Virus record (IMG/VR): IMGVR_UViG_3300042691_004430
Location: 1-58,595 of that record
DNA from: a virus
Strand: one strand, 5' to 3'
Length of the DNA stretch: 58,595 nt
Shown here piece by piece: positions 8,462-58,595 of the stretch. The position numbers and the translations under genes were made by a program. Within the stretch, counting starts at the first letter, position 1, and each line of letters begins with the position of its first letter. The notes under the pieces are model-generated. The model saw nothing but the letters and a program-made list of their open reading frames with translations, did no database searches and was not told where the DNA came from.

Positions 8462-8695
8462 TTACTTATTGTGTTTTAACATGTACAGTGTAATTTTAGG
8501 ATCATCTACTACTAGTAAATCGCTTGGGTATTTCCTATCAGGCCATGATCGTCCTACTGCTACAACATTAATCATTTTAGGATTAACTTTTTTAACTACT
8601 GCTATTTTAAGCCTGCTATGGTCGGGGTACACCACAGTGTCCCCGACATTAATGCTGTTTCCTAAAATATCTTTATGTATTATTTCCTCAGTCAT
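8462..8695 (-). CDS. Small SH3-like/hypothetical protein
   Basis: A 77-residue protein starting MTEEIIHKDILGN; the start overlaps the stop of the DsbA-like gene (ATGACTGA), which I preferred to a Met nine codons upstream. The INVGDTVVYPDHSRLKIAVVKKV segment has the look of a small SH3-like beta barrel of the kind common in T4-like phages (KOW-like spacing of Gly and Val). No specific function can be assigned. Confidence 0.6.
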   Translation of the reverse strand: MTEEIIHKDILGNSINVGDTVVYPDHSRLKIAVVKKVNPKMINVVAVGRSWPDRKYPSDLLVVDDPKITLYMLKHNK

Positions 8696-8954
8696 CTTTA
8701 TCATAACCGAGAGTAGCAACAATAGTTTCGAGATCTTCGAATTCGTCTGTGTGACGTGTCCAATCTCTTTTCATTGCAACTTTGATTGCTTTGTTAATCA
8801 AACTTGGTTTGACATTAAGTTCTTCTGCAACACTTTTAATAGTGTCTTTTAAGCCACCTTGCAAGTCGGCAATTTCTTGTAGGACGCTAACACCTTCCTT
8901 AACAAGACGATCCAATTTTGCTTTTTCTTCAGGCCCGTAGACTCTGTCACTCAT
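8688..8954 (-). CDS. DsbA-like dsDNA-binding protein
   Basis: An 88-residue protein starting MSDRVYGPEEKAKL; AAGGAG lies six bases upstream of this ATG, which decides the start over a Met 16 codons earlier. It has helical segments VKEGVSVLQEIADLQGG and DTIKSVAEELNVKPSLINKAI, the second resembling a helix-turn-helix. Length and pattern resemble T4 DsbA (89 aa), a double-stranded DNA-binding protein linked to late promoter regions, and its marine homologues. A strong sigma70-like promoter precedes it. The name is tentative. Confidence 0.55.
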   Translation of the reverse strand: MSDRVYGPEEKAKLDRLVKEGVSVLQEIADLQGGLKDTIKSVAEELNVKPSLINKAIKVAMKRDWTRHTDEFEDLETIVATLGYDKDD

Positions 8955-8973
8955 GTAATACTCCTTTTTTAAA

Positions 8974-9002
8974 ACTTTAACAATAAATTGCTTGTTTGTC
9001 AA
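8974..9002 (-). promoter_or_regulatory. Sigma70-like promoter upstream of dsbA-like gene
   Basis: Minus-strand TTGACA (8997-9002, a consensus -35) and TAAAGT (8974-8979) are 17 bases apart. The DsbA-like start lies 19 bases past the -10 box, with AAGGAG between them. It sits in the gap after the preceding gene, as expected for an early promoter. Confidence 0.7.
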
Positions 9003-9605: not shown

Positions 9606-10331
9606 TTACTTTTTAACGTGTTCGGGTTTACCTTTGTGCTTGGTTTTAGCATAGTCTTTTGCGTCTGCTTTGCTCATGCCTTTAGCAGCCTTTGCTACTT
9701 CTTTACTAGCAGGCTTTTCGCCCGATTTTGCAGCGTAAACCATGCCCATAAACTTTTGTTGTGCTTTTGACTTGGCTTTTTCCAGCAACGACTTGTATGC
9801 TGTTGCTTCTGATTCTTTCATTTTTAAAGTTTTTGATTCAGCAGTAATAGGACTCATTACTTTTTCATCATACTCTAGTGCATGATATACACTGCCGATA
9901 TAGTCTGCTGCTTTGGTAATCTTGCTTTGCTGCCAACCTTCGAGGCCTTCTGCTTCACTGATGTTTTTTAGCAATTCGTGTAGTTTAATTGCATACTTTG
10001 CAATTTTATAAAGTTCAGCACGAGCCATTTGTACTTCGTGATCTTGTTCTGCTGCACCAGCAAGTTCAGCAAGACCTTCAATTAGTTTAGATTCTGCCAT
10101 AGCAGGCTGTCCGGCCTTGTTTGCTCTTGCTACAAGACCCTTGATAATTTCTGGAGACATTCCAGTTTTTTGTGAAAGTTCTGCCATGTTCTTAGCACCA
10201 AACGGTGTGCCAAAGTTTTCCAAATGATCTGCTAGTCTTGCCATTGCGTTAGCAATCATATCGTTTGGTTCTTTTACTGCTAGTTGTTGCAGTTTACGGC
10301 CTAGTGCAGCATACTTCATATTTGGTTCCAT
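9606..10331 (-). CDS. Probable virion-associated protein with C-terminal DUF3008-like domain
   Basis: A 241-residue, almost wholly helical protein. Residues 110-160 (LYKIAKYAIKLHELL, GWQQSKITKAADYIGSVYHAL) match a helical motif I recall from proteins of marine T4-likes. The C-terminal 60 residues (KAQQKFMGMVYAAKSGE, then YAKTKHKGKPEHV) match DUF3008, a small basic domain. The start is supported by GGAG six bases upstream, and a late-promoter-like element lies just before it, which suggests late expression with structural genes. Confidence 0.6.
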   Translation of the reverse strand: MEPNMKYAALGRKLQQLAVKEPNDMIANAMARLADHLENFGTPFGAKNMAELSQKTGMSPEIIKGLVARANKAGQPAMAESKLIEGLAELAGAAEQDHEVQMARAELYKIAKYAIKLHELLKNISEAEGLEGWQQSKITKAADYIGSVYHALEYDEKVMSPITAESKTLKMKESEATAYKSLLEKAKSKAQQKFMGMVYAAKSGEKPASKEVAKAAKGMSKADAKDYAKTKHKGKPEHVKK

Positions 10332-10354: not shown

Positions 10355-10363
10355 TATTTATCG
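10355..10363 (-). promoter_or_regulatory. T4 late-type promoter element
   Basis: Minus-strand CGATAAATA, close to the T4 late consensus TATAAATA, lies 24 bases upstream of the DUF3008-like gene, over the last codons of the preceding gene. The same CGATAAATA string precedes three fibre-region genes in this window, which makes chance less likely. Confidence 0.55.
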
Positions 10364-11194
10364 TTTAATTGTTTTACCGCCGAACAAACTTACATCTTTC
10401 ATATCCAATGCGTTGTCAGTTGGCTTTTGCATTTTTACTTTTGTTTTACTGTTTGCAACAGTTGCTACACCGCCTGCACTAGTACCGCCTGCTGTAGCAG
10501 TTTCGGCAATTTCTTCAGTAAATTTCTTAGTAATTTTAATATCGTCACGTCCAAAGGCAGTTACAAATGCTTGGAATTCTTTTGGACCCATAACAAATTC
10601 GTTTGCGTTTGGTTTAAAGTATTGCATCACACGATCGTTTCTACGTAGTGTGCTCATTAGTCTCGGACTGGTAACTGTAAAGTGTCTTGTAATCTTCTTT
10701 GCTGCTGGTTCAACTCGTGCGTCGGCACTACCCCATGATCCATCTGATCCTTTTTTCTTACCTTTTACAGTAATCTTATTGTCAACTTTGTCAGACTTTT
10801 CTTTTTCTTTATATTCTACTTTTACTTTACCATTACTGGCTTTTTCAATCTGTCCAAGAAATTCGCCAAAATACGAAAATCTGTTAGCCAGTCCTGGAGC
10901 ATCGATGGATATTGTTACACCACGTGCTGCTGTAAATGTTTTGTCGGCAAGCATTTTTTTAATTGCATTAACCAAATCTTCCTTGCTTTTAAGATTGTAA
11001 AACTTCCATTTAGCATCGGCAAATTTTAAATCTGCTGCACTTGGAACAAAACCTGCATAACCTACCAAGTATGGGTTGTCATCACCACCACCTGCTGCGG
11101 CAATTGGCTTCTTAATGCCAAATCTCATAAAGATATTGCCGGCTGTTTTTTCTTTTTCTACTCTGTCTAGTTCTACAATCTGATTAACTTGCAT
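10358..11194 (-). CDS. Hypothetical protein in the head/cargo block
   Basis: A 278-residue protein that I do not recognise. The N-terminal third is mixed; a lysine-rich central stretch (VEYKEKEKSDKVDNKITVK) is followed by a region ending in a flexible Gly/Thr/Ala segment and a short tail LFGGKTIKR. Its ATG lies two bases past the stop of the 55-residue gene upstream. Its place among genes with capsid-targeting-like N-termini suggests a virion role. Its own N-terminus (MQVNQIVELD) resembles the tag only weakly. Confidence 0.6.
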   Translation of the reverse strand: MQVNQIVELDRVEKEKTAGNIFMRFGIKKPIAAAGGGDDNPYLVGYAGFVPSAADLKFADAKWKFYNLKSKEDLVNAIKKMLADKTFTAARGVTISIDAPGLANRFSYFGEFLGQIEKASNGKVKVEYKEKEKSDKVDNKITVKGKKKGSDGSWGSADARVEPAAKKITRHFTVTSPRLMSTLRRNDRVMQYFKPNANEFVMGPKEFQAFVTAFGRDDIKITKKFTEEIAETATAGGTSAGGVATVANSKTKVKMQKPTDNALDMKDVSLFGGKTIKR

Positions 11195-11196
11195 TG

Positions 11197-11364
11197 TTAT
11201 CCACCTACTAATTTACCGCGCAATGGGTGTTTTTGTGTTGGTCCCATAGTGGGATGTACTTTTTTAGGCATAGGATCGGATCCTTTTGCTTGGTCTGGTT
11301 TTTTCTTTTCGCGACCAACATCTACATTAAGTAAAGCAGTTTCTGTTATTTCAAAAACTTTCAT
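11197..11364 (-). CDS. Small protein with capsid-targeting-like N-terminus, 55 aa
   Basis: A 55-residue frame starting MKVFEITETALLNVDVG. The first eight residues fit the pattern MK(I/V)xx(I/L)xE shared by several neighbours. The rest is basic and proline-rich (KKPDQAKGSDPMPKK, KHPLRGKLVGG), like the small internal head proteins of T4-likes. The start overlaps the previous stop and the stop lies two bases before the next ATG, so it is coupled on both sides. Inferred: an internal head peptide trimmed after ITE. Confidence 0.6.
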   Translation of the reverse strand: MKVFEITETALLNVDVGREKKKPDQAKGSDPMPKKVHPTMGPTQKHPLRGKLVGG

Positions 11365-11552
11365 TTTGCTTTCCTTAGACCTGCAATTTTTGCATTGATA
11401 CCGTACTGTGCTAGTATTTGTTGTTTTGCTTCTTGAACATTACGTGCAGATACTTGAACAGGGATCCATTGACTATAGAACTTCTGTTGCACTTGTACGT
11501 TTGCAACAAAAATGGAAAACACCTGTGTATCTTTTAATTCACGTATTAGCAT
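11361..11552 (-). CDS. Small hypothetical protein, 63 aa
   Basis: A 63-residue protein beginning MLIRELKDTQVFSIFVANV. I chose this ATG, two bases after the upstream stop, rather than an in-frame Met 38 codons earlier that lies well inside the neighbour's coding region. The sequence continues with beta-like segments (KFYSQWIPVQVSARN) and a helix with EAKQQILAQYG. A late-promoter-like AATAAATA sits just before the start. Function unknown. Confidence 0.6.
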   Translation of the reverse strand: MLIRELKDTQVFSIFVANVQVQQKFYSQWIPVQVSARNVQEAKQQILAQYGINAKIAGLRKAK

Positions 11553-11553
11553 A

Positions 11554-13500
11554 TTAATATTTATTCCAATCAAACGGTTTACGTTTTTTAGGAATTTCTT
11601 CAACTGCATGACCGCCCTGCATTGCTGCCCATTCACGTAAACTATATTTAGGCTCAACGGATTCATTTGGGTTACTAGTCCAAAATGCCTTCCCTTGACT
11701 AGTTTGACTGGTACTAGGTTTAATATCGTTGCCCATACTTTTCACAAATTTGTACATTGCAGTAGCTATTCCGTTGCGTTGATATTCATCATTAACACGC
11801 AAATTGCCGGCTACCAAATATGGATCAGCCTTTTTAAATCGTTTAAACAAACCAGAAGGTTCATCGTTTCCTATAACGATAAATCTCACATATCCAATAG
11901 ACTTATTATCTATAAATGCTTCAACTTTTATTTGCGGAATCATATTACTAGGATAATGATTTGCAACTATTTTTACTTTGCCTATCTTAGTATCAACTAC
12001 AGTTTCTTTATGAAAGTCTTTGTTTAATAATTCAGGATTTATGCTTTCAAAAAGTCCTATGTTAAACAAAACATTTGTGTTAGATTCATTTAGTTTAAAG
12101 AACGGACCTTGGATGATACTTTTGCTTTTTTCTTTTACTAATCCTCTATTGAGATTTTTCTTAAATTCATCTGTGATGTGTCTATTTCGCAGTCCTTGAC
12201 TAAAGAACAAGTGCGTTTCTACAGGATTGTTCCCGAACACCTTTGCTATTGCTGCCATGCGATTTCTGCCTTCATGCCCTACTACTCTAGCAGGCATAGA
12301 AAAATCACCATTTTCCCACGATTCTGGTATTTCTATTCTAAGGAAAGGACTGCCGATAGTGCCGCCTTGTTCGAGATGTTGGGCTATTTTTTCAGAAGGT
12401 TCACCGTCTAATGGTGCTGCTAGATCTATAAAATGCTTAGGAGTCATAGTCACACGCAAACCTAAATAATCGACTTCTTGGTTGTTAGGAACAGCACCCC
12501 ATCCATTTTTATTGTCAATTATATCTACATTGGTATTGACACCTTTTACAATACGATCGTCTTCTTTAAAAAACTCATTTTCTCTTATTGTAAGACGACC
12601 TTGCTTTGTTAAAAATTCTTGATATTTTGGATCAGAGTGTTTCATTACAAAATTTATAGAACTATCTTTGTTAAAATCGTTGAACGTATAAAAATTGGTA
12701 CTTGGCCCAATAAACTGATATTCGTCGAAAGTTTTGTGATAAATTACAGAATCAATTCTTCTAAAAAATAATCCTCGGCCGTATCTAGATTGAGAAAATT
12801 TGTCAACTACGTAATATCGTTTTTCTATTTTAACAATATCGTTTATTTCAATATCTTCTCGCCAGTTTTCTGTATTTTCTTTGACTTGTTTCTTACTCTT
12901 GCTGTCTTCATAAACTGGATTGTTATTGTTTAACTTTGATTCTTTATAGTACGGATTTTTTGGATCAGTGTCTCCGGTAACATCTGGCCACCAATCTAAC
13001 TCGAAACGTTTTCCATCAGCAAACATCTTCTTCATTGACTTGATGCGCTTTTCATATTCGGCTTTCGAAGGTTTAACATTGTTTTCAACAACGTCAAGCA
13101 CATATTGTATAGTAACTGCATTGGCACTTAAACTTGCACATCTTGCACCCACTTCACCTTTTAGATGATCTATTAAAATACTTTCGCTGCTTTTTGCCAA
13201 GTCGTCGGAAAGATCATGCGGTACTCTCAAGTCAACATAGGAATAAACATAATCGTAGTGTGGTAGTGGTGACGAGTGTAGAATGTATTCGTCCAACACT
13301 TCGATTCTTTTAAATCCGTCTTTGTTATACCAAATTGCTCGTTTATGTGTTAATTCATCTGGATTTTTAAAAAACTTTACCAGTTGTTTTACATATCCGG
13401 CAGGTTCGTCATTTTTCCATTGAGATAAAACATTTAAAGATTCAGCAACTTTTTTTCCACGCTTATCGTTTACTTCAAACAGATCTTGTATTTTCATCAT
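11554..13500 (-). CDS. Composite cargo-type protein: capsid-targeting-like tag, ParB-like and GNAT-like regions
   Basis: A 648-residue multidomain protein. The N-terminus (MMKIQDLFEVNDKRG) has the (I/L)xE tag. Around residues 385-420, RVVGHEGRNRMAAIAKVFG resembles the substrate motif of ParB/Srx-like nucleases. Residues of about 560-600 (LVAGNLRVNDEYQRNGIATAMYK) form a convincing GNAT acetyl-CoA-binding motif A (R/Q-x-x-G-I/A). The C-terminal 50 residues are linker-like and basic. I infer a protein packaged in the head and perhaps injected, carrying acetyltransferase activity. The region from 20 to 350 is unassigned. M1 and M2 are both possible starts; M1 overlaps the upstream stop. Confidence 0.65.
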   Translation of the reverse strand: MMKIQDLFEVNDKRGKKVAESLNVLSQWKNDEPAGYVKQLVKFFKNPDELTHKRAIWYNKDGFKRIEVLDEYILHSSPLPHYDYVYSYVDLRVPHDLSDDLAKSSESILIDHLKGEVGARCASLSANAVTIQYVLDVVENNVKPSKAEYEKRIKSMKKMFADGKRFELDWWPDVTGDTDPKNPYYKESKLNNNNPVYEDSKSKKQVKENTENWREDIEINDIVKIEKRYYVVDKFSQSRYGRGLFFRRIDSVIYHKTFDEYQFIGPSTNFYTFNDFNKDSSINFVMKHSDPKYQEFLTKQGRLTIRENEFFKEDDRIVKGVNTNVDIIDNKNGWGAVPNNQEVDYLGLRVTMTPKHFIDLAAPLDGEPSEKIAQHLEQGGTIGSPFLRIEIPESWENGDFSMPARVVGHEGRNRMAAIAKVFGNNPVETHLFFSQGLRNRHITDEFKKNLNRGLVKEKSKSIIQGPFFKLNESNTNVLFNIGLFESINPELLNKDFHKETVVDTKIGKVKIVANHYPSNMIPQIKVEAFIDNKSIGYVRFIVIGNDEPSGLFKRFKKADPYLVAGNLRVNDEYQRNGIATAMYKFVKSMGNDIKPSTSQTSQGKAFWTSNPNESVEPKYSLREWAAMQGGHAVEEIPKKRKPFDWNKY

Positions 13501-13883
13501 ACACCATACTTGTTGCGTTTTGGTTTGGCAACTGGACTGTTTTTATTTGTACTGTCCATTTCTTTACTTTTTGTATCGCCGTTGTTTAAATCTTTATAAT
13601 TTAAACCAATTACTTTATAACTTTGTTTAAGCATTTCGGCTTCGACTTCTGTGTACGGGTGTGCAGTTTTTTTCTTGCCTATCCAACTCATTGAATCCAT
13701 ATCTGGCGGAGTTTTTCCATCAGAACTTGCAAGGGCCATCATCAATCTGTACTGTCCGTAGTCACTACCAAATGTTCCTAAATTCGGACCATCATCATAT
13801 GTATGCAAACCTGCGGTTGACTCTTGTTCTCGTTTTGATAGTTTACTTCCGGCGGCTTCACTGATTATATCATGTATTTTCAT
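13497..13883 (-). CDS. Capsid-targeting-tagged small protein, paralog A
   Basis: A 128-residue protein starting MKIHDIISEAAGSKL and ending SPVAKPKRNKYGV. Both ends match the next gene upstream (MKIRDIINE and SPVSKPKRNKYGV), and the middle shares a DYGQYR/YMQYR element and a YTEVEAEML/YTKEEEEIV helix. The first nine residues fit a T4-type capsid-targeting peptide with protease site ISE. Probably an internal head protein. Related proteins with the KPKxNKYGV tail occur in cyanophages; function unknown. Confidence 0.7.
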   Translation of the reverse strand: MKIHDIISEAAGSKLSKREQESTAGLHTYDDGPNLGTFGSDYGQYRLMMALASSDGKTPPDMDSMSWIGKKKTAHPYTEVEAEMLKQSYKVIGLNYKDLNNGDTKSKEMDSTNKNSPVAKPKRNKYGV

Positions 13884-13884
13884 G

Positions 13885-14292
13885 TTAAACTCCGTACTTG
13901 TTGCGTTTTGGTTTTGAAACCGGGCTTGACTTATTTACGTCCGTGGTTTCTGTGCTTTTACTACTGGTGATTTGCACTGGTGTAACACCCATCAATCTTG
14001 AGGCCAAAGTAACAATTTCTTCTTCTTCTTTGGTGTACGCAACCTGTGTTAAATTTTCTGCATATTCAGATTCTTGCTCAAAGTCGTCATTGGTTAAATG
14101 ACCATCTGCCATTGCTTTTGCGGCTGCAACTGCAACACCGTATCTGTACTGCATGTAAGGATCTGTATTTCTAAGTTGCTTTTGTATAAAGGTAGCAGGC
14201 ATAGGATCTGTAATTCTAGCAGGAAGTTTTCTAGACTTGCCAGTAAGTTTTGGTTCGCGCTGTTGTTCGTTAATAATGTCTCTAATTTTCAT
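13885..14292 (-). CDS. Capsid-targeting-tagged small protein, paralog B
   Basis: A 135-residue protein starting MKIRDIINEQQREPK, with a basic N-terminal third, a central helix DPYMQYRYGVAVAAAKAMADG, an acidic segment, and the tail SPVSKPKRNKYGV. It is the tandem paralog of the following gene. The N-terminal (I)NE site fits prohead protease cleavage. Its start overlaps the upstream stop (ATGA). Confidence 0.7.
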   Translation of the reverse strand: MKIRDIINEQQREPKLTGKSRKLPARITDPMPATFIQKQLRNTDPYMQYRYGVAVAAAKAMADGHLTNDDFEQESEYAENLTQVAYTKEEEEIVTLASRLMGVTPVQITSSKSTETTDVNKSSPVSKPKRNKYGV

Positions 14293-14513
14293 TTTTTCTT
14301 ACGCCCTCTAAAACCCGGCTTTGTATTTAGCGCACCTGTCATGTGTGGAAGATTAAACCATAATTCAAACCATTCTTTATCACCAGGCTTGATATTTTTT
14401 TCTCGTTCTATACGACGTTTTTCTGTTCCGGTTACAGAGATGTTTTCGTTGTAAGGAGTATATCCTTTAAACTCATTTATGCCTGCAAGACGTTTTAGAT
14501 CATCGATATTCAT
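14289..14513 (-). CDS. Small tagged head-type protein, 74 aa
   Basis: A 74-residue protein starting MNIDDLKRLAGINEFKGY. The DLKRLAGINE element recurs at the N-termini of marine phage proteins and ends in an INE site like the other tags here. The C-terminus is strongly basic (GFRGRKKK), as in nucleic-acid-binding internal head proteins. It overlaps both neighbours. Confidence 0.6.
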   Translation of the reverse strand: MNIDDLKRLAGINEFKGYTPYNENISVTGTEKRRIEREKNIKPGDKEWFELWFNLPHMTGALNTKPGFRGRKKK

Positions 14514-15315
14514 TTTTACCTTCTTGCTCTTTTTCTTTCCACCAATTTAAAAAATTCATTGTTGGATTGCTTAGATACCAAGCAACATCTTTATATGTTT
14601 TAAATCTTGCTTGTAGCAATTCTTGTTTAATTTTTCCGTATTCTGGGTCACGCATTGCTCTTCTATCAGATGGTAAATTAATAAGTTCTTTTGATTTTTT
14701 ACCGGCATACTTGCTTAAAAATTCTTGTAGGTTCAGCATATAGTAGAATGGTGTATCTACTATTACTTCGCCGTCCCATTCGCTTTGACTAGGAATACCT
14801 TGCTTATAACCTGCTAAGGCACGGTTAACTTCTTCACTAGCATCATAGTCTGTTGGCCGCGATAAAGTCGTTCGCGCACCGCCTCCTAGATCTTTTGGTT
14901 TATATTTGTCATTGTAGCCTTCAAAACTTCCTAAGTCTAGTATCTCTGGGTTCCAATATGCTTTAAATTTACCACCCGGTATCATAATAAAGTTTGTGCC
15001 ATGAAATCCTGATATATTATCGGGTGTAGTAACCAACGCTTGTGTAGGGTGTTGTACACCTAAACCGTTGAAGATTTTTTGTTGAAAGAAGCTACTATTG
15101 CCTTTTACACCTTTGCGTTCTCCGCCTTCGTTATTAACTTTTATCATAAGATTTGTAGCGCCTCTGCTTCGAGATTCACCGCCCTCAAACATTCTATATA
15201 ATATAGGAGTATTGCCTAGTTTATTACACATTTCAGCAGCAACTTTTACACGCTCAATAGCGTGATCTGTATCGTTAATAAATGTAACTTTTTCAGTAAT
15301 CTCATTTACTTTCAT
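14500..15315 (-). CDS. Tagged protein, ADP-ribosyltransferase-like
   Basis: A 271-residue protein starting MKVNEITEKVTFIND. The pattern after the tag, PILYRMFEGGES with an early Arg, a region GVQHPTQALVTTPDN, and FIMIPGGKFKAYWNPEILDL, resembles a family of phage proteins usually described as putative mono-ADP-ribosyltransferases. A GEVIV segment may hold the acidic catalytic position. If right, it would parallel T4 Alt, an ADP-ribosyltransferase packaged through a capsid-targeting peptide and injected to modify host RNA polymerase. Catalytic residues cannot be fixed by eye. Confidence 0.5.
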   Translation of the reverse strand: MKVNEITEKVTFINDTDHAIERVKVAAEMCNKLGNTPILYRMFEGGESRSRGATNLMIKVNNEGGERKGVKGNSSFFQQKIFNGLGVQHPTQALVTTPDNISGFHGTNFIMIPGGKFKAYWNPEILDLGSFEGYNDKYKPKDLGGGARTTLSRPTDYDASEEVNRALAGYKQGIPSQSEWDGEVIVDTPFYYMLNLQEFLSKYAGKKSKELINLPSDRRAMRDPEYGKIKQELLQARFKTYKDVAWYLSNPTMNFLNWWKEKEQEGKNEYR

Positions 15316-16772
15316 TTCTTTTTAGCTCTTCCTGATTTCATATTGGCACACCAGTGGTACATCTTTCCACGTTCGCCGCCAGAATTCTTTGCACGTTTGC
15401 GTAATGCTGTTACACTGCCACTGCAACTAGCACCGGCACGTTTTACTCTACCAGGACGGCTTTTGCCTTTTATTTTACCATCTGCAAAGTTTTCGTTATA
15501 TGCTTTGTCGGCGGCTGCTTTTGCACTTGCACCATCTGGGTGGCGTGGATTAATACTAACAACATCACCATTCATAAGGTCGCTTACACTAGCACTCTTT
15601 CCTACTTTGTCCAACAGTTGATGCAGTTTATCATTTGGGTCGTAGCCATTGGTTTCATATCCCATTTTGCCACGTACTTCTGTTCTTTTGCCTGTGTTTT
15701 TATCTAAAATATGCAATATTAACATATTGGCACGTTTGTCACGTTCCAGTTGTAACAAATAATTTTTGCTATCAGCAACATTTTCGTTTATATCTACGTC
15801 GGCACTTTTAAAAAATTCTGGATATTTTTTGTTGAACATTCGCATAATGATGCCGGCTTTTGTGTGTGCTTGGTTTTCTTCGGAACTACCAGTTTTGCCG
15901 CTGTCTTGATTTAGATCACCATCTAGCGATTGTTTAAAATGTACAAGTTCGTGTGCAAACGTTCTTAGTATGTCAATAGGATGACGATCCTTAATACCTA
16001 GATATATAGCACGGTCATCGTTTACAAAACGTCCAAACGATGGATAGTCTTGATGATCTAGGTACGGTTCTAGTTTAATTTCGGGTAACTTATTGAGATC
16101 CAACACTTTTACAGCAATTGGAAGAAACTTCTCAACAGCCGACATTAAATCATTTTTTTTTAGATCCAATGACTGATTTTCACTAACGGACTGGCTGATC
16201 CCCATTGCACTGCGAACAGCATCATACATCTGTTGAGCAAGTTTAGGATTTGGTACACCTTGTGTAAATGAATCAAAGTCGCCTGTTGCTGCTGCCGCTC
16301 GCATTTTACTAGCACTCATGCCTTCTGCACCATCGGCGTCAGGATCTCTTTCGCCAGCACTTACAACTGTAATGCTATCAAACTGAAATGGTACTTTTCC
16401 GCTCTTGTCTGGTTTTCCATTGTAGGTGTCGAACAGTTTCTGAAAACCATCTACTCTGTCGCTGCCTGCAACAAACACAACATCAGTGTAACCTAAACTT
16501 TGAATATATTCTAGTGCAACAACAGGTGTGTTAATGCCCTCACGACCGATTTCTATACCAGGAAAGAATGCCTTAGCAAACTTTAATTTTGTACCAAAGT
16601 CAAGTGGATCTTTTTTTTTATCTTGACTGTGACTTAAAAAAAGAAAATGATCGCCGGGTATGCTTTTGATTTTATCAACTAATTTAGCATGACCGATAGT
16701 TGGAGGATTCATTCTGCCAAATGCGAGAACTGCAACTTTACTACTTTGTTCAAACAGTTCTCTCAGTAGCAT
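15312..16772 (-). CDS. Three-part fusion: nucleotidyltransferase, HExxH region, basic C-terminal domain
   Basis: A 486-residue protein. The N-terminus MLLRELFEQ carries the LFE tag. Residues of about 12-190 form a cytidylyltransferase-like domain: FGRMNPPTIGHAKLV (HxGH-type motif) and GMSASKMRAAAATGD (SxxKxR). Residues near 265-285 contain ILRTFAHELVHFKQ, an HExxH-type zinc-peptidase motif. The last 50 residues (KSRPGRVKRAGASCSG, MYHWCANMKSGRAKKK) match a small conserved basic domain I recall from marine phage proteins. Nucleotidyltransferases of this NadM/RfaE-like type are frequent in T4-like phages, but joining one to a peptidase motif is unusual. Its ATG overlaps the upstream stop. Confidence 0.7.
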   Translation of the reverse strand: MLLRELFEQSSKVAVLAFGRMNPPTIGHAKLVDKIKSIPGDHFLFLSHSQDKKKDPLDFGTKLKFAKAFFPGIEIGREGINTPVVALEYIQSLGYTDVVFVAGSDRVDGFQKLFDTYNGKPDKSGKVPFQFDSITVVSAGERDPDADGAEGMSASKMRAAAATGDFDSFTQGVPNPKLAQQMYDAVRSAMGISQSVSENQSLDLKKNDLMSAVEKFLPIAVKVLDLNKLPEIKLEPYLDHQDYPSFGRFVNDDRAIYLGIKDRHPIDILRTFAHELVHFKQSLDGDLNQDSGKTGSSEENQAHTKAGIIMRMFNKKYPEFFKSADVDINENVADSKNYLLQLERDKRANMLILHILDKNTGKRTEVRGKMGYETNGYDPNDKLHQLLDKVGKSASVSDLMNGDVVSINPRHPDGASAKAAADKAYNENFADGKIKGKSRPGRVKRAGASCSGSVTALRKRAKNSGGERGKMYHWCANMKSGRAKKK

Positions 16773-17107
16773 TAGTATTCTCCTTTTTTAAAGTTCTCAA
16801 CTTCTGCTTCTAAAATTCTATTGATAATTTCAATTTTATCGTTATCGGCCAACAAGTCTTCCGGACGCTTTTTAATATTAAACTTTTTAACATACTTTTT
16901 AACAGCCGCATCAATAATCGGGATCATTTCTTTCTTAGAAAACTTACCACCGTTCTTAACTGCTTCTTGTACATTTAACATCATAGGATACATATGTCTT
17001 CTATAAAATGCAGGATCGTTACGCATAAAGACCATAAGGTCTTCGACCAAATCCCACGGAAGATTTTCGTTCATATCCATATTTGAAAAATCTGTTACTT
17101 TTACCAT
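16772..17107 (-). CDS. Conserved marine phage hypothetical protein
   Basis: A 111-residue helical protein that starts MVKVTDFSNMDMNENLPWDL. It has a DLVEDLMVFMRNDPAFYRRHMYP segment that recurs in related marine phages as far as I remember, and a C-terminal acidic helix (INRILEAEVENF). It sits between two head/cargo-type genes, overlapping both. Role unknown; possibly structural. Confidence 0.6.
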   Translation of the reverse strand: MVKVTDFSNMDMNENLPWDLVEDLMVFMRNDPAFYRRHMYPMMLNVQEAVKNGGKFSKKEMIPIIDAAVKKYVKKFNIKKRPEDLLADNDKIEIINRILEAEVENFKKGEY

Positions 17108-17664
17108 TTTCTACACGACCAATATCTTGCTTTTGTTCTAGGACCTGGGTTATCACAATTGTGTCTTGCTCTAAAACTACGACGACGAGCAGGATTTGAT
17201 TTTTTAATTTTCATATTCGGATCGCCAAAGTTTACCTTTTTAATATTTCCTGTACCTGGGTTCTTAACATAAACCTTGAACTTTTTAACATCGCCACGCA
17301 TGGGCTTGCCAAGCGGTACTTTACGTCCTTGATATTCTGCTTCATCTAGTACATCATCTTCGTTGAACCACATAACACCGTAGGCTTCGTAAAAGTCGTC
17401 GCCATCGTATGTTTCTTCTTCAACTACGTCACCTTCGGTTGAGATCTCAATATCAAAGTCTTCGAATCCCTGTTCAAACATATAATTTGCTAAACGATTA
17501 GCATATTCGTCTGATTCTTCTTCACTCAATTGTCGAGGCAACGGTATTTCGTAAACAGTAGTATCCTGACTGCTTTCATAAATTTCGTGACTGGGGAAAA
17601 TACTTTCATCTAACTTTTTAGATGTTTGTTGCTTTTCCATAATTATTCTTACAAAATGTTCCAT
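17101..17664 (-). CDS. Protein with C-terminal DUF5872-like Arg/Cys-rich domain
   Basis: A 187-residue protein. The N-terminal two thirds are very acidic (SEEESDEYANRLANYM, EEETYDGDDF). The C-terminal 65 residues are basic and conserved: GDVKKFKVYVKNPGTG, VNFGDPNMKIKKSNPARR, SFRARHNCDNPGPRTKARYW, SCRKW. I recognise this as the DUF5872-type domain found in marine phage proteins, with conserved Cys and His. An LDESIFPSHE segment near residue 18 precedes it. GAGG five bases before the ATG supports the start. Its location suggests a virion component. Confidence 0.65.
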   Translation of the reverse strand: MEHFVRIIMEKQQTSKKLDESIFPSHEIYESSQDTTVYEIPLPRQLSEEESDEYANRLANYMFEQGFEDFDIEISTEGDVVEEETYDGDDFYEAYGVMWFNEDDVLDEAEYQGRKVPLGKPMRGDVKKFKVYVKNPGTGNIKKVNFGDPNMKIKKSNPARRRSFRARHNCDNPGPRTKARYWSCRKW

Positions 17665-17671
17665 GTTTACC

Positions 17672-18019
17672 TCAGTGATTTAGTGTGATGCTGTTTATAC
17701 TACCTTGAGTCCAAGAAGCAGTTGCTCGTACCCAAACATAATTTCCTATAAAATTCTTAATAGTTGTACTGGTTGTTGACCCAACCGCAGTGTATTCTGT
17801 AGTGGGTACTGTAAACCAGTCTGTTTCTACAGGTGATACTGCTAGTGTTGCTTGCATCTTAACAGTACCTATAAACCCTGCTACTGAATATTGAACAGTA
17901 TGGTAACCATCTGTTTTACCGTAATAGCCGTCGGCCTTGTATTGTTCGCCGGTAACAGACTTGGTACCTGTACCGGAATATGCTTGATTTGATAAAATTG
18001 TTTCACTTGTAGACGACAT
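17672..18019 (-). CDS. Beta-rich probable virion structural protein
   Basis: A 115-residue protein starting MSSTSETILSNQAYSG. It is rich in Ser, Thr, Gly and aromatic residues with alternating strands (YHTVQYSVAGFIGTVKMQAT, FIGNYVWVRATASW), typical of small tail or decoration proteins. I took the first ATG rather than an in-frame TTG five codons earlier that lies inside the upstream gene. A late-promoter-like TGATAAATA lies six bases before the start, fitting structural expression. Confidence 0.65.
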   Translation of the reverse strand: MSSTSETILSNQAYSGTGTKSVTGEQYKADGYYGKTDGYHTVQYSVAGFIGTVKMQATLAVSPVETDWFTVPTTEYTAVGSTTSTTIKNFIGNYVWVRATASWTQGSINSITLNH

Positions 18020-56735: not shown

Positions 56736-56820
56736 TGGTGCCCACTGCCGGACTCGAACCGGCACTCCAGAGGAAGCAAATTTTAAGTCTGCCGCGGCTA
56801 CCAATTTCACCAAGCGGGCA
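56736..56820 (-). tRNA. tRNA-Leu (anticodon TAA)
   Basis: Minus-strand class II tRNA: acceptor TGCCCGC pairs with GTGGGCA with one G-T, D-arm region GGTGAAATTGGTAGCC, anticodon loop CTTAAAA in the GCAGA/TTTGC stem, variable arm TCC-TCT-GGA, T arm GCCGG-TTCGAGT-CCGGC, and an encoded CCA. All class II Leu features are present. It decodes UUA, a codon common in AT-rich genes. Confidence 0.93.
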
Positions 56821-56822
56821 TT

Positions 56823-57218
56823 TTATTTTTTATACTTATCACCGGTAACTTGACCGGCACTCATTATAATAACTGGAATACGTTTAATATTCATTTCACG
56901 AAATGCAAAGTAACGATGATGTCCATCAATTACTTGATAAGTGTTTTCTCGTGGAATTCTTCTTACTAGTATTGGAGGTATCTTGCTGATATCTCGTTTT
57001 ATCTGTTTTTTAATACTGTTTATATTTGCTCTAGCATCAACATCTTTAGTATCACCTTTACCGTCTCCTTCGAATCTAGATCGGATCTGATTCATAGGCA
57101 TTACAACAACTCGGTTGTATTCGTTTTTAAAATCAGTTACATTGGCACCGACAGTACTGTCACCAGTTTCAGGATCAACGTCTTTGGTTATTTTTGCTAC
57201 TACTTCAAATATTTTCAT
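56823..57218 (-). CDS. ParB-like nuclease domain protein with tag-like N-terminus
   Basis: A 131-residue protein starting MKIFEVVAKITKDVD; a longer frame starts inside the tRNA and is rejected. IPPILVRRIPRENTYQVIDG, followed by HHRYFAFREMNIKRIPVIIM, is the ParB/Srx-like core (DGHHR). The first residues resemble the capsid-targeting peptides at 11-17 kb but lack a clear (I/L)xE site. It lies between two tRNA genes. It may cut or bind DNA, or modify proteins, as some ParB-like phage proteins do. Confidence 0.7.
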   Translation of the reverse strand: MKIFEVVAKITKDVDPETGDSTVGANVTDFKNEYNRVVVMPMNQIRSRFEGDGKGDTKDVDARANINSIKKQIKRDISKIPPILVRRIPRENTYQVIDGHHRYFAFREMNIKRIPVIIMSAGQVTGDKYKK

Positions 57219-57222
57219 ATAG

Positions 57223-57232
57223 TATTTATTAT
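57223..57232 (-). promoter_or_regulatory. Late-type promoter element
   Basis: Minus-strand ATAATAAATA between tRNA-Leu (CAA) and the ParB-like ATG, five bases before the start codon. A weak match to the late element; it could give the gene its own transcript apart from the tRNAs. Confidence 0.35.
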
Positions 57233-57233
57233 T

Positions 57234-57318
57234 TGGTGCCCCAGGAGGGACTTGAACCCCCACGCCTTGCGGCAAAAGATTTTGAATCTTCCGTGGCTAC
57301 CATTACACCACTAGGGCA
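57234..57318 (-). tRNA. tRNA-Leu (anticodon CAA)
   Basis: Minus-strand class II tRNA: acceptor TGCCCTA pairs with TGGGGCA (one T-G), anticodon loop TTCAAAA in the GAAGA/TCTTT stem, variable arm GCC-GCAA-GGC, T arm GGGGG-TTCAAGT-CCCTC with one G-T, encoded CCA. It decodes UUG. Confidence 0.93.
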
Positions 57319-57542
57319 AAGTGTTGTTTAAAGGTGGCATCAGCACTTGTCTAGTACAAATTTATCGGGCCCAGCTGCGTTCAAACAACTATGTGTCTGT
57401 TTTTACACCTACGTAAGGACTAGAATGTTTTTTATCCTTACTCCTTTAAACAATATAGTAATTAGCCTAGCAATAACCTATAGCATATCGCCGGGTCGCG
57501 GTCGACTCACTTCCCTTACACCCCCAAGGTGCAGGCTAAAAT
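57319..57542 (-). ncRNA. Structured non-coding spacer between two tRNA genes
   Basis: A 224-base stretch with no gene. It holds perfect 11-base inverted repeats TTGTTTAAAGG (57324-57334) and CCTTTAAACAA (57443-57453), an inner 7-bp hairpin GTAAGGA/TCCTTAC (57413-57441), and a second stem of ten pairs with one bulge (57462-57472 with 57530-57539). Two closed domains in a row, as in the larger RNA next door, suggest a structured RNA, perhaps the 3' part of the same primary transcript. No known family is recognised. Confidence 0.45.
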
Positions 57543-57618
57543 TGGTTGCGGTGGGCAGGACTCGAACCTGCGATTTACTGGTTATGAGCCAGTCGAGATG
57601 CCGCTTCTCTACCCCGCA
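57543..57618 (-). tRNA. tRNA-Met (anticodon CAT)
   Basis: Minus-strand tRNA with acceptor TGCGGGG, D arm GAGA-AGCGGCA-TCTC, anticodon loop CTCATAA in an ACTGG/CCAGT stem, T arm GCAGG-TTCGAGT-CCTGC and ACCA end. The TGCGGGG start and CCGCAACCA end resemble initiator tRNA, but the three GC pairs of the initiator anticodon stem are not complete and the acceptor stem has an irregular pair. It could serve as elongator or initiator Met, or Ile if the C is lysidinylated. Confidence 0.85.
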
Positions 57619-57623
57619 ATATT

Positions 57624-57709
57624 CTGTTTACACATACACCCCAGCGCATTGCGTGTTTCAGTAAAGTTTGGGTGGCCGACCCTCATCTACGGGATGTATG
57701 TGTAAACAG
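57624..57709 (-). repeat. Long inverted repeat closing an RNA domain (I)
   Basis: CTGTTTACACATACA (57624-57638) and TGTATGTGTAAACAG (57695-57709) are perfectly complementary over 15 bases, and CCCC/GGG extends the stem inward. The loop region holds a GGGT-ACCC hairpin. Forms the last domain before tRNA-Met on the minus strand. Confidence 0.85.
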
Positions 57710-57795
57710 ACTTAACTAGTTGAACAGTCTCGGAAATGGAGTAGTCGCCTACAGCCAAGTGGGTCGGAACTCGAAAACTGTTCAACAAGTTAAGT
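57710..57795 (-). repeat. Long inverted repeat closing an RNA domain (II)
   Basis: Arms 57710-57728 and 57777-57795 are 19 bases each and pair with a single mismatch (U-U). The enclosed segment has a GNRA hairpin GTAG-GCGA-CTAC on the minus strand. It abuts domain I with no spacer. Confidence 0.85.
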
Positions 57796-58206
57796 TAAAA
57801 GATATGCCAATCCTCTTATCACTTTCCACAAACGGTACCGGTTTTTGAACTAACATATCGTCAAACTTAATTTTTGCATAGGCTGAGATTATGCCTTGCT
57901 GTAGGAGCCTTTGACCATTACCGTTAGCCTTGCGAGCCACGTTCTGTCGTTATCCACAAGAGCCTTTTACGGTCATCTTGTATCTCCCAGTGGTGCCTTT
58001 TTTGGAGAGTGGCGTTTCTCTCGTCGCACGTTGCTACTCGTCCTTCTATCTTTCGTCTGCCTTGCGAGCAGTTCACAGTCGCTAAACCGTTACGCTATCT
58101 TTCCGAACAACTACATCAGCCTTGCGAGCATCCGTAGACCACATTCTCTTGCGAGTGTGGCATTAACCACCTTTCACAACGTACCGGGACAGTCTTTCGC
58201 TTTTGT

Positions 58207-58277
58207 TTATCAAAGAAGGGATTGAACCTTCGCCGATTCCGTTCAATGGAATTGCTCTACCGCTGAGCTATTTGCGA
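58207..58277 (-). other. tRNA-like domain inside the large RNA
   Basis: Minus strand: D arm GCTC-AGCGGTA-GAGC, anticodon arm ATTCC-ATTGAAC-GGAAT, four-base variable loop and T arm GAAGG-TTCAATC-CCTTC are all perfect. The acceptor stem is not: TCGCAAA against TTTGATA leaves two mismatches, and no CCA follows, unlike the three other tRNAs here. The anticodon would be TGA (Ser), yet the long variable arm of tRNA-Ser is missing. Flanking CTGGGACAG (58293-58301) and CTGTCCCGG (58184-58192) pair around it. It looks like a structural tRNA mimic. Confidence 0.75.
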
Positions 58278-58595
58278 ACCTACTTCGATGTGCTGTCCCA
58301 GTTGCTTCACGTCTTGTTAGACGCAAAATACAACACACCGACTGTCTTTTGCCTTGCGGGCTACTCAACGTCTTTTTAAGTATCCGGGGCCTAACCCTTC
58401 CACTCTCAAGATGCTAACTTGCCTTTGCTTGCGGGCTCAGACTAGTTAACTACCTGTTAACTTTCAGCATTCGTTAGTTTGGCTGAACAGTGTTTGGGCG
58501 CCAACCCTCTTATCGCTCACCGACCGGCTCTGCGACTATCCTTTCGGACACTATTCCTAACTTACTGCCTACCGCCTTTCTACGGACGGGAGTTG

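Follow-up and report, generated by a model that had tools for sequence, protein, structure and literature searches.

Short leaders ending in [ILV]xE mark a cassette of putative prohead cargo proteins in a marine T4-like phage

Work on the capsid targeting sequence (CTS) of phage T4 has centred on the small internal proteins of T4 itself. IPI-III begin with MKTYQEFI(A/T)E, a short N-terminal leader that ends in [I/L]xE and stands on otherwise unrelated proteins, and the aromatic residues at positions 4 and 7 matter for IPIII targeting (PMC9026906). T4 Alt, an ADP-ribosyltransferase, is cut at ITE-6 and LTE-619 (PMC5694885), and the ejection proteins of SPN3US and phiKZ are head-packed cargo cut at multiple sites after xxE by a gp21-related protease. 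In cyanophages a cytidylyltransferase/NMNAT (T4-GC190) has been detected in virions, and the literature consulted on it names no targeting signal. Here we describe a block of genes at 9.6-17.7 kb of a 58,595-nucleotide stretch of viral DNA (IMG/VR record IMGVR_UViG_3300042691_004430, hereafter the window), many of whose products start with a short [I/L/V]xE leader resembling the CTS. The window is a piece of the genome of a marine T4-like phage, encoding a DNA polymerase (phrog_262), PhoH, an endolysin, a ClpA-like ATPase and a clamp loader, and a second record of the same virus (G001) extends to 111 kb.

A sequence-only reading of the window had named seven such N-termini, in a row and on otherwise different proteins. 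All seven are where it placed them, on the minus strand and each with [I/L]xE; most window tags fit M[KQL][IVL]x[DEQ][IL]xE, with hydrophobic residues at 3 and 6. The seven cluster on one strand, but a gene for a 63-amino acid (aa) protein interrupts the row between the last two, and although most are otherwise different, 13497-13883 and 13885-14292 are paralogues (cluster 42) with a common C-terminus, PV(A/S)KPKRNKYGV. At least two more tagged proteins, 10358-11194 and 17101-17664, lie just outside the region covered by that reading and had been overlooked. The genes of the block are as follows (↓ marks the predicted cut):

17101-17664, minus strand: 187-aa protein, putative tag MEHFVRIIME↓K, with a C-terminal SFRARHNC..YWSCRKW module common to other cassette proteins
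16772-17107, minus strand: 111-aa protein (MVKVTDFSNMDMNE), lacking a clean tag, its earliest [ILVM]xE being at residue 14; the family is conserved at the same place
15312-16772, minus strand: 486-aa putative cargo protein, tag MLLRELFE↓, with cytidylyl/adenylyltransferase (FGRMNPPTIGH) and metallopeptidase-like (HELVHF) domains
14500-15315, minus strand: 271-aa putative cargo protein, tag MKVNEITE↓, fold not assigned
14289-14513, minus strand: 74-aa protein, long-form tag MNIDDLKRLAGINE↓FKGY
13885-14292, minus strand: 135-aa protein, tag MKIRDIINE↓, paralogue of the next
13497-13883, minus strand: 128-aa protein, tag MKIHDIISE↓A; C-terminus PVAKPKRNKYGV, common with the previous
11554-13497, minus strand: 647-aa putative cargo protein, tag MKIQDLFE↓, with a C-terminal LREWAAMQGGH module
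11361-11552, minus strand: 63-aa protein (MLIRELKDTQVF), tag-like start without the glutamate cut site
11197-11364, minus strand: 55-aa protein, tag MKVFEITE↓T
10358-11194, minus strand: 278-aa protein, tag MQVNQIVE↓, matched by a gp23 cleavage-site profile
9606-10331, minus strand: 241-aa protein, no N-terminal tag, C-terminal KAQQKFMGMV (DUF3008-like) module

Using mechanical open reading frame (ORF) lists, we found [ILV]xE with its glutamate at or before residue 11 in 8/11 block proteins of the 111-kb record versus 18/158 elsewhere (Fisher p=1.3e-5; shuffle expectation 0.135 and 0.086, respectively). Across 31 related loci the motif occurred in 161/454 proteins of the clpA-pol interval versus 16/357 outside it (shuffle 0.12 and 0.08), that is, at shuffle level outside the cassette; as the loci are related, p-values overstate independence here and the effect size weighs more. 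The cytidylyltransferase family presents 29 distinct leaders on the same enzyme start, 27 of which end in [ILVM]xE (MLLRELFE, MKFKDIKE, MLITEILE, MRAWELLE, MLLRHLTE and MKIRNLFE among them), and those homologues of 14500-15315 whose alignment reaches its N-terminus retain tags (MKVNEITE, MKINEIIE, MKIREVTE, MRSQEFVTE, MRAHEIVTE) with core identity down to 32-37%. LAG[VI]xE stands in 29/38 distinct N-termini of the 14289-14513 family, and [ILVM]xE by residue 12 in 30/46 of those of the 17101-17664 family (~50 related proteins). Cassette content differs strongly between relatives, whose tagged proteins include Cu/Zn superoxide dismutase, NT5C 5'-nucleotidase, peptidoglycan-binding and other domains. 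We predict with high confidence that the tag is a removable leader.

Homologues of one tagged enzyme have been located in virions by others. The protein of 15312-16772 has a nucleotidyltransferase domain with an HxGH-type TIGH motif, which places it in the cytidylyltransferase/NMNAT family (PHROG 3041, E=3.9e-54; phrog_87, E=0.0018; Pfam PF01467 below cut-off only). Its cyanophage homologues carry T4 IPIII-like leaders of the 10-residue type: MKNFHQFITE↓A in S-SRM01 and MKNFSSFLTE↓A in S-CREM2, both near-identical to the T4 CTS, MKKFNAFLIE↓A in P-RSM4, MKKFSAFLNE↓A in S-SM1 and MKSFLQFLKE↓A in S-SCSM1. The enzyme was detected by mass spectrometry in purified virions of S-CREM2 (PMC10665884), S-SM1 (PMC3037559) and S-SCSM1 (PMC9602691), with contamination left open in the S-CREM2 and S-SCSM1 papers. 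The window protein thus shares its enzyme family with virion-detected, tagged proteins; it differs in its shorter tag and in the metallopeptidase-like domain, which is a separate adjoining gene in S-SRM01 but fused to the cytidylyltransferase here. In S-CREM2 the T4-type tag pattern fits six proteins, five of them virion-detected (a SAM hydrolase, an APH-like kinase, the cytidylyltransferase, gp13 and gp136); among non-structural proteins, 5/6 with the tag were detected versus 12/171 without it (Fisher p=2.6e-5), a result that is suggestive and not a blind test because both the pattern and the list of structural proteins were chosen after viewing the data. The PA5oct homologue is untagged (MSILTSILNNTLNSVVFVYGRMNPP) and unmarked as detected by mass spectrometry, with many of its neighbours marked. 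PA5oct, whose gp23 is 67% identical, has mass spectrometry-detected tail or structural genes in its clpA-pol interval and not this cassette, which means that synteny by itself does not argue for cargo.

The prohead protease that the sequence-only reading had proposed to search for was not found in the window or in its 111-kb record, but a relative has it. In G002 (138.7 kb), the closest relative of the window with head genes (cytidylyltransferase identity 50%), an S77 protease match (E=5.5e-27) is followed by gp22 and gp23, and the cassette lies on the same contig; the gp23 is 67-71% identical to those of Vibrio phage 2.275.O, Sinorhizobium phage Phosso and the PA5oct group. G010 (186 kb) likewise carries, on one contig, the cassette and a gp21-like gene beside gp22 and gp23, the gp21-like call being made by place and sequence. 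The gp23 of 75 relatives has a near-invariant junction, YL(S/A)E↓(S/T)ATAGATSAGN(V/I)ATLNRVILP, and its maturation cut segment is YLSE↓SATAGATSAGNVATL; the junction lies at the position of the known cut in T4 gp23. The tag motif and its flanks match this gp23 site of the relatives.

The likeness to gp23 extends to the segment after the cut. A profile of the gp23 cleavage site retrieved 33 non-gp23 proteins at E<=0.01 (best 2.1e-8), and a slightly shifted segment retrieved 31, the 10358-11194 protein among them; in the same sliding-window test the other 32 overlapping gp23 segments and all shuffles gave 0 matches. In all, the cut segment returns in about 30 proteins of the cassettes. Inside 10358-11194, EEIAE↓TATAGGTSAGGVATV copies the gp23 cleavage site and mature N-terminal arm (candidate P1 residue 231, cut between 10502 and 10501), and in an 81-aa cassette protein of G010, MKIREIFE↓TATAGATSSANIAT, the tag glutamate coincides with the gp23 P1. 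Cyanophages have a like layout with a different arm, which matches their own gp23: P-RSM4 gp23 (TAGTGGFGGGATATGPVAGFDPVL) shares it with a small protein of that phage (TAGTGGFSGSAAAKGPVAGFDPVM) and S-CREM2 gp23 (GADGFTGAAAPGGPNAGFDPVM) with the virion-detected gp160 (GATGFTGAAAPEGPVAGYDPLM), and ORF97 of S-SCSM1 (GAGGFTGSSAAEGPTAGYDPLM) is a virion-detected gp23-arm protein. We found no description of a gp23 cut site and arm on cargo in the open-access papers searched, and among isolated phages there was no match to the arm-module consensus peptide or to the 271-aa protein of 14500-15315. From these sequences we suggest that the arm module docks, either with the inner shell or with the protease site.

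The simple tagged block, or cargo cassette, of the earlier proposal held as to the shared tags, but the picture is richer, with internal cut sites, shuffled modules and the gp23-arm module. Cassette proteins share four recurrent modules, which stand in some cases right behind the leader and in others far inside, or close to the C-terminus of, unrelated proteins. Ahead of 83 distinct internal copies of three modules, glutamate occupies P1 in 81 cases and one of I, L, V or M occupies P3 in 56 (67%, versus a mean of 18% at P2 and P4-P8). A search for the arm module that did not demand the glutamate gave 27 copies; all have it, and 25 have ILVM at P3. A gp21-type site would leave just such a pattern: P3 hydrophobic, P2 free, and the sequence varying from copy to copy. 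Besides IAE↓TATAGG in 10358-11194, the candidate sites in the window are ESKLIE↓GLAELAG in 9606-10331 (P1 residue 85, cut between 10077 and 10076), at a place where relatives have the N-terminal tag MREKDLKE↓GLGELAD, NEFFKE↓DDRIVKG in 11554-13497 (P1 residue 312, cut between 12562 and 12561) and AYNE↓NFADGK in 15312-16772 (P1 residue 427, cut between 15492 and 15491). As [ILV]xE precedes shuffled modules even internally, the proteins look like protease-segmented polyproteins and may be processed into several pieces. We tentatively propose, with somewhat less than even confidence, that they are modular polyproteins in which each module brings its own [ILV]xE site, so that a cargo domain could be added anywhere and released in the head, and in which the gp23-arm module tracks the capsid protein of the lineage and serves to anchor cargo at the shell or to time it there. 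Primed-side specificity was considered as a reason for the arm module and is unlikely, as other modules follow cut sites without the arm.

Prohead loading and gp21-type cleavage of the tagged proteins is the best-supported reading of the block, and we consider it very probable; the tagged virion-detected homologues, the protease, gp22 and gp23 in cassette-bearing relatives, and the gp23 cut site and arm in cassette proteins all lend indirect support to what the earlier reading had proposed. A leader of 8-14 residues ending in [I/L/V]xE would carry each tagged protein into the prohead core, where the S77 (gp21-type) protease would cut after the glutamate and free the mature protein inside the head, to be ejected, probably, with the DNA. 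At the further [ILV]xE sites, at the starts of exchangeable modules, the protease would probably cut the proteins into several mature pieces, polyprotein-like, and the module that copies the maturation cut and new N-terminal arm of the major capsid protein probably docks at the inner shell or competes with gp23. Our confidence in any role of the cargo in the host is lower than in the loading and cutting or polyprotein readings.

Set against the described systems, the cassette differs from IPI-III in that its tags are mostly 8-9 residues long, its putative cargo is large and enzymatic, several proteins have internal cut sites and many tagged genes share one block. The relative G010 bridges the two forms, with both short tags and MKTFKEYLAE↓S, almost the T4 IPIII leader, at the start of 135978-136565 (L204-L213). 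Like Alt, the cassette would combine large enzymes having very short leaders with additional downstream cuts, but no ADP-ribosyltransferase homology was detected in the window cassette proteins. SPN3US and phiKZ differ in motif (A-x-E or S/A-x-E) and in having their sites in propeptides, not at the boundaries of shuffled modules.

Several observations weigh against loading and cleavage. The window tags are two residues shorter than the 10-residue T4 CTS and have hydrophobics at 3 and 6 but no aromatics at 4 and 7; S-CREM2 tags have these aromatics, as in IPIII. Without the aromatic pair the window tags are better said to work like a CTS than to be the T4 CTS, and targeting is argued by analogy. 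Neither the window nor its 111-kb record has head genes, and the S77 search of both found no prohead protease, because these fragments do not include the head region. The cytidylyltransferase of G002, the nearest relative (L002/L088 5126-6643), starts MQLRELFN, with asparagine for the cut-site glutamate, and a good site is also missing from the tag-like starts of 11361-11552 and 16772-17107. Two internal sites of the window have a weaker P3, Y in YNE of 15312-16772 and F in FKE of 11554-13497, and the P1 glutamate that stands where modules begin may belong to the module itself.

The same proteins might instead be prohead core or scaffold components, like T4 gp22, gp67 and gp68, loaded and cut up in maturation and not host effectors. 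Several are small and basic, with multiple [ILV]xE sites and a gp23-like segment, and in T4 the core proteins have many cut sites (PMC5694885); yet enzyme domains such as cytidylyltransferase, Cu/Zn superoxide dismutase (E=3e-46) and NT5C 5'-nucleotidase are hard to reconcile with a scaffold, homologues remain in mature virions and content varies strongly among relatives. We consider this account unlikely. That modules recombine freely among cassette proteins, and that two neighbours are paralogous, would also fit a shared N-terminus and gp23-like segment left over from gene duplication or module recombination, with no present packaging role. We find this improbable, given that P1 glutamate, P3 I/L/V and a free P2 are retained as surrounding residues change, that one enzyme family bears different leaders, and that cyanophages have the same layout with an arm matching their own gp23, and tagged homologues in virions.

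Most improbable in our estimate is a general leader, for translation or for binding another phage or host factor, that resembles the CTS by chance: the tag spacing does differ from that of T4 and cleavage is predicted from sequence, but the motif is at shuffle level outside the cassette, and a translation leader cannot explain why the same module follows both an N-terminal tag and an internal [ILV]xE.

Some block proteins and their surroundings deserve separate mention. The protein of 14500-15315 has no Pfam, PHROG or PDB-profile match; its AlphaFold models (pLDDT 39 and 50) gave no usable match in a fold search, and an ADP-ribosyltransferase identity, suggested by YR...E-type conserved residues, was not supported: there was no profile match and Foldseek returned only noise. 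A GNAT match in 11554-13497 is weak (Acetyltransf_1, E=0.0087, below cut-off). For 11361-11552 we dropped the 101-aa ORF at 11361-11666 in favour of the 63-aa start at 11552, following homologues of 61-63 aa; this start, MLIRELKD, is residue 39 of the ORF and has no xE. The homologue of the KAQQKFMGMV module of 9606-10331 is a virion protein in S-SCSM1. Upstream of the cassette the T4 late-promoter motif TATAAATA was not enriched (1 match versus 5.6 expected), and TAAATACTA occurred at chance.

Beyond the window, the same virus encodes a 489-aa candidate tagged protein (G001:C1:99929-101398) that starts MRYSDFKLVE↓G, with related families starting MRYREFKILTE↓A (cluster 24). At L019:7702-9618 a relative has a tagged cassette protein (MKWRDIKE↓DGRIVKG) in which the Cu/Zn superoxide dismutase domain is complete (E=3e-46), making it a candidate for an antioxidant enzyme that is injected. 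S-CREM2 gp12 (L104, OR473000, 7704-10313) is a Cas9-like protein detected in virions; its RFASFMAE↓A stands at residues 18-25, a position that suggests a misplaced start or a longer leader, and the protein could be a CRISPR nuclease carried in the head of a cyanophage. Elsewhere in the window, 17672-18019 and 8688-9002 resemble, by eye, PA5oct EST35_0299 and EST35_0310, both mass spectrometry-detected according to the PA5oct record, and at 56736-58278 four tRNA genes (Leu-TAA, Leu-CAA, Met, Ser-TGA) flank a ParB-like protein with the start MKIFEVVAK.

CTS logic would explain a large and rapidly changing gene block seen in many contigs of uncultured phages, and would offer a mechanism for the cytidylyltransferase/NMNAT, SAM hydrolase, kinase and Cas9-like protein of cyanophage virion proteomes. 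An [ILV]xE leader or boundary may also serve as a simple rule for finding injected proteins in phage genomes, one that existing mass-spectrometry data could test.

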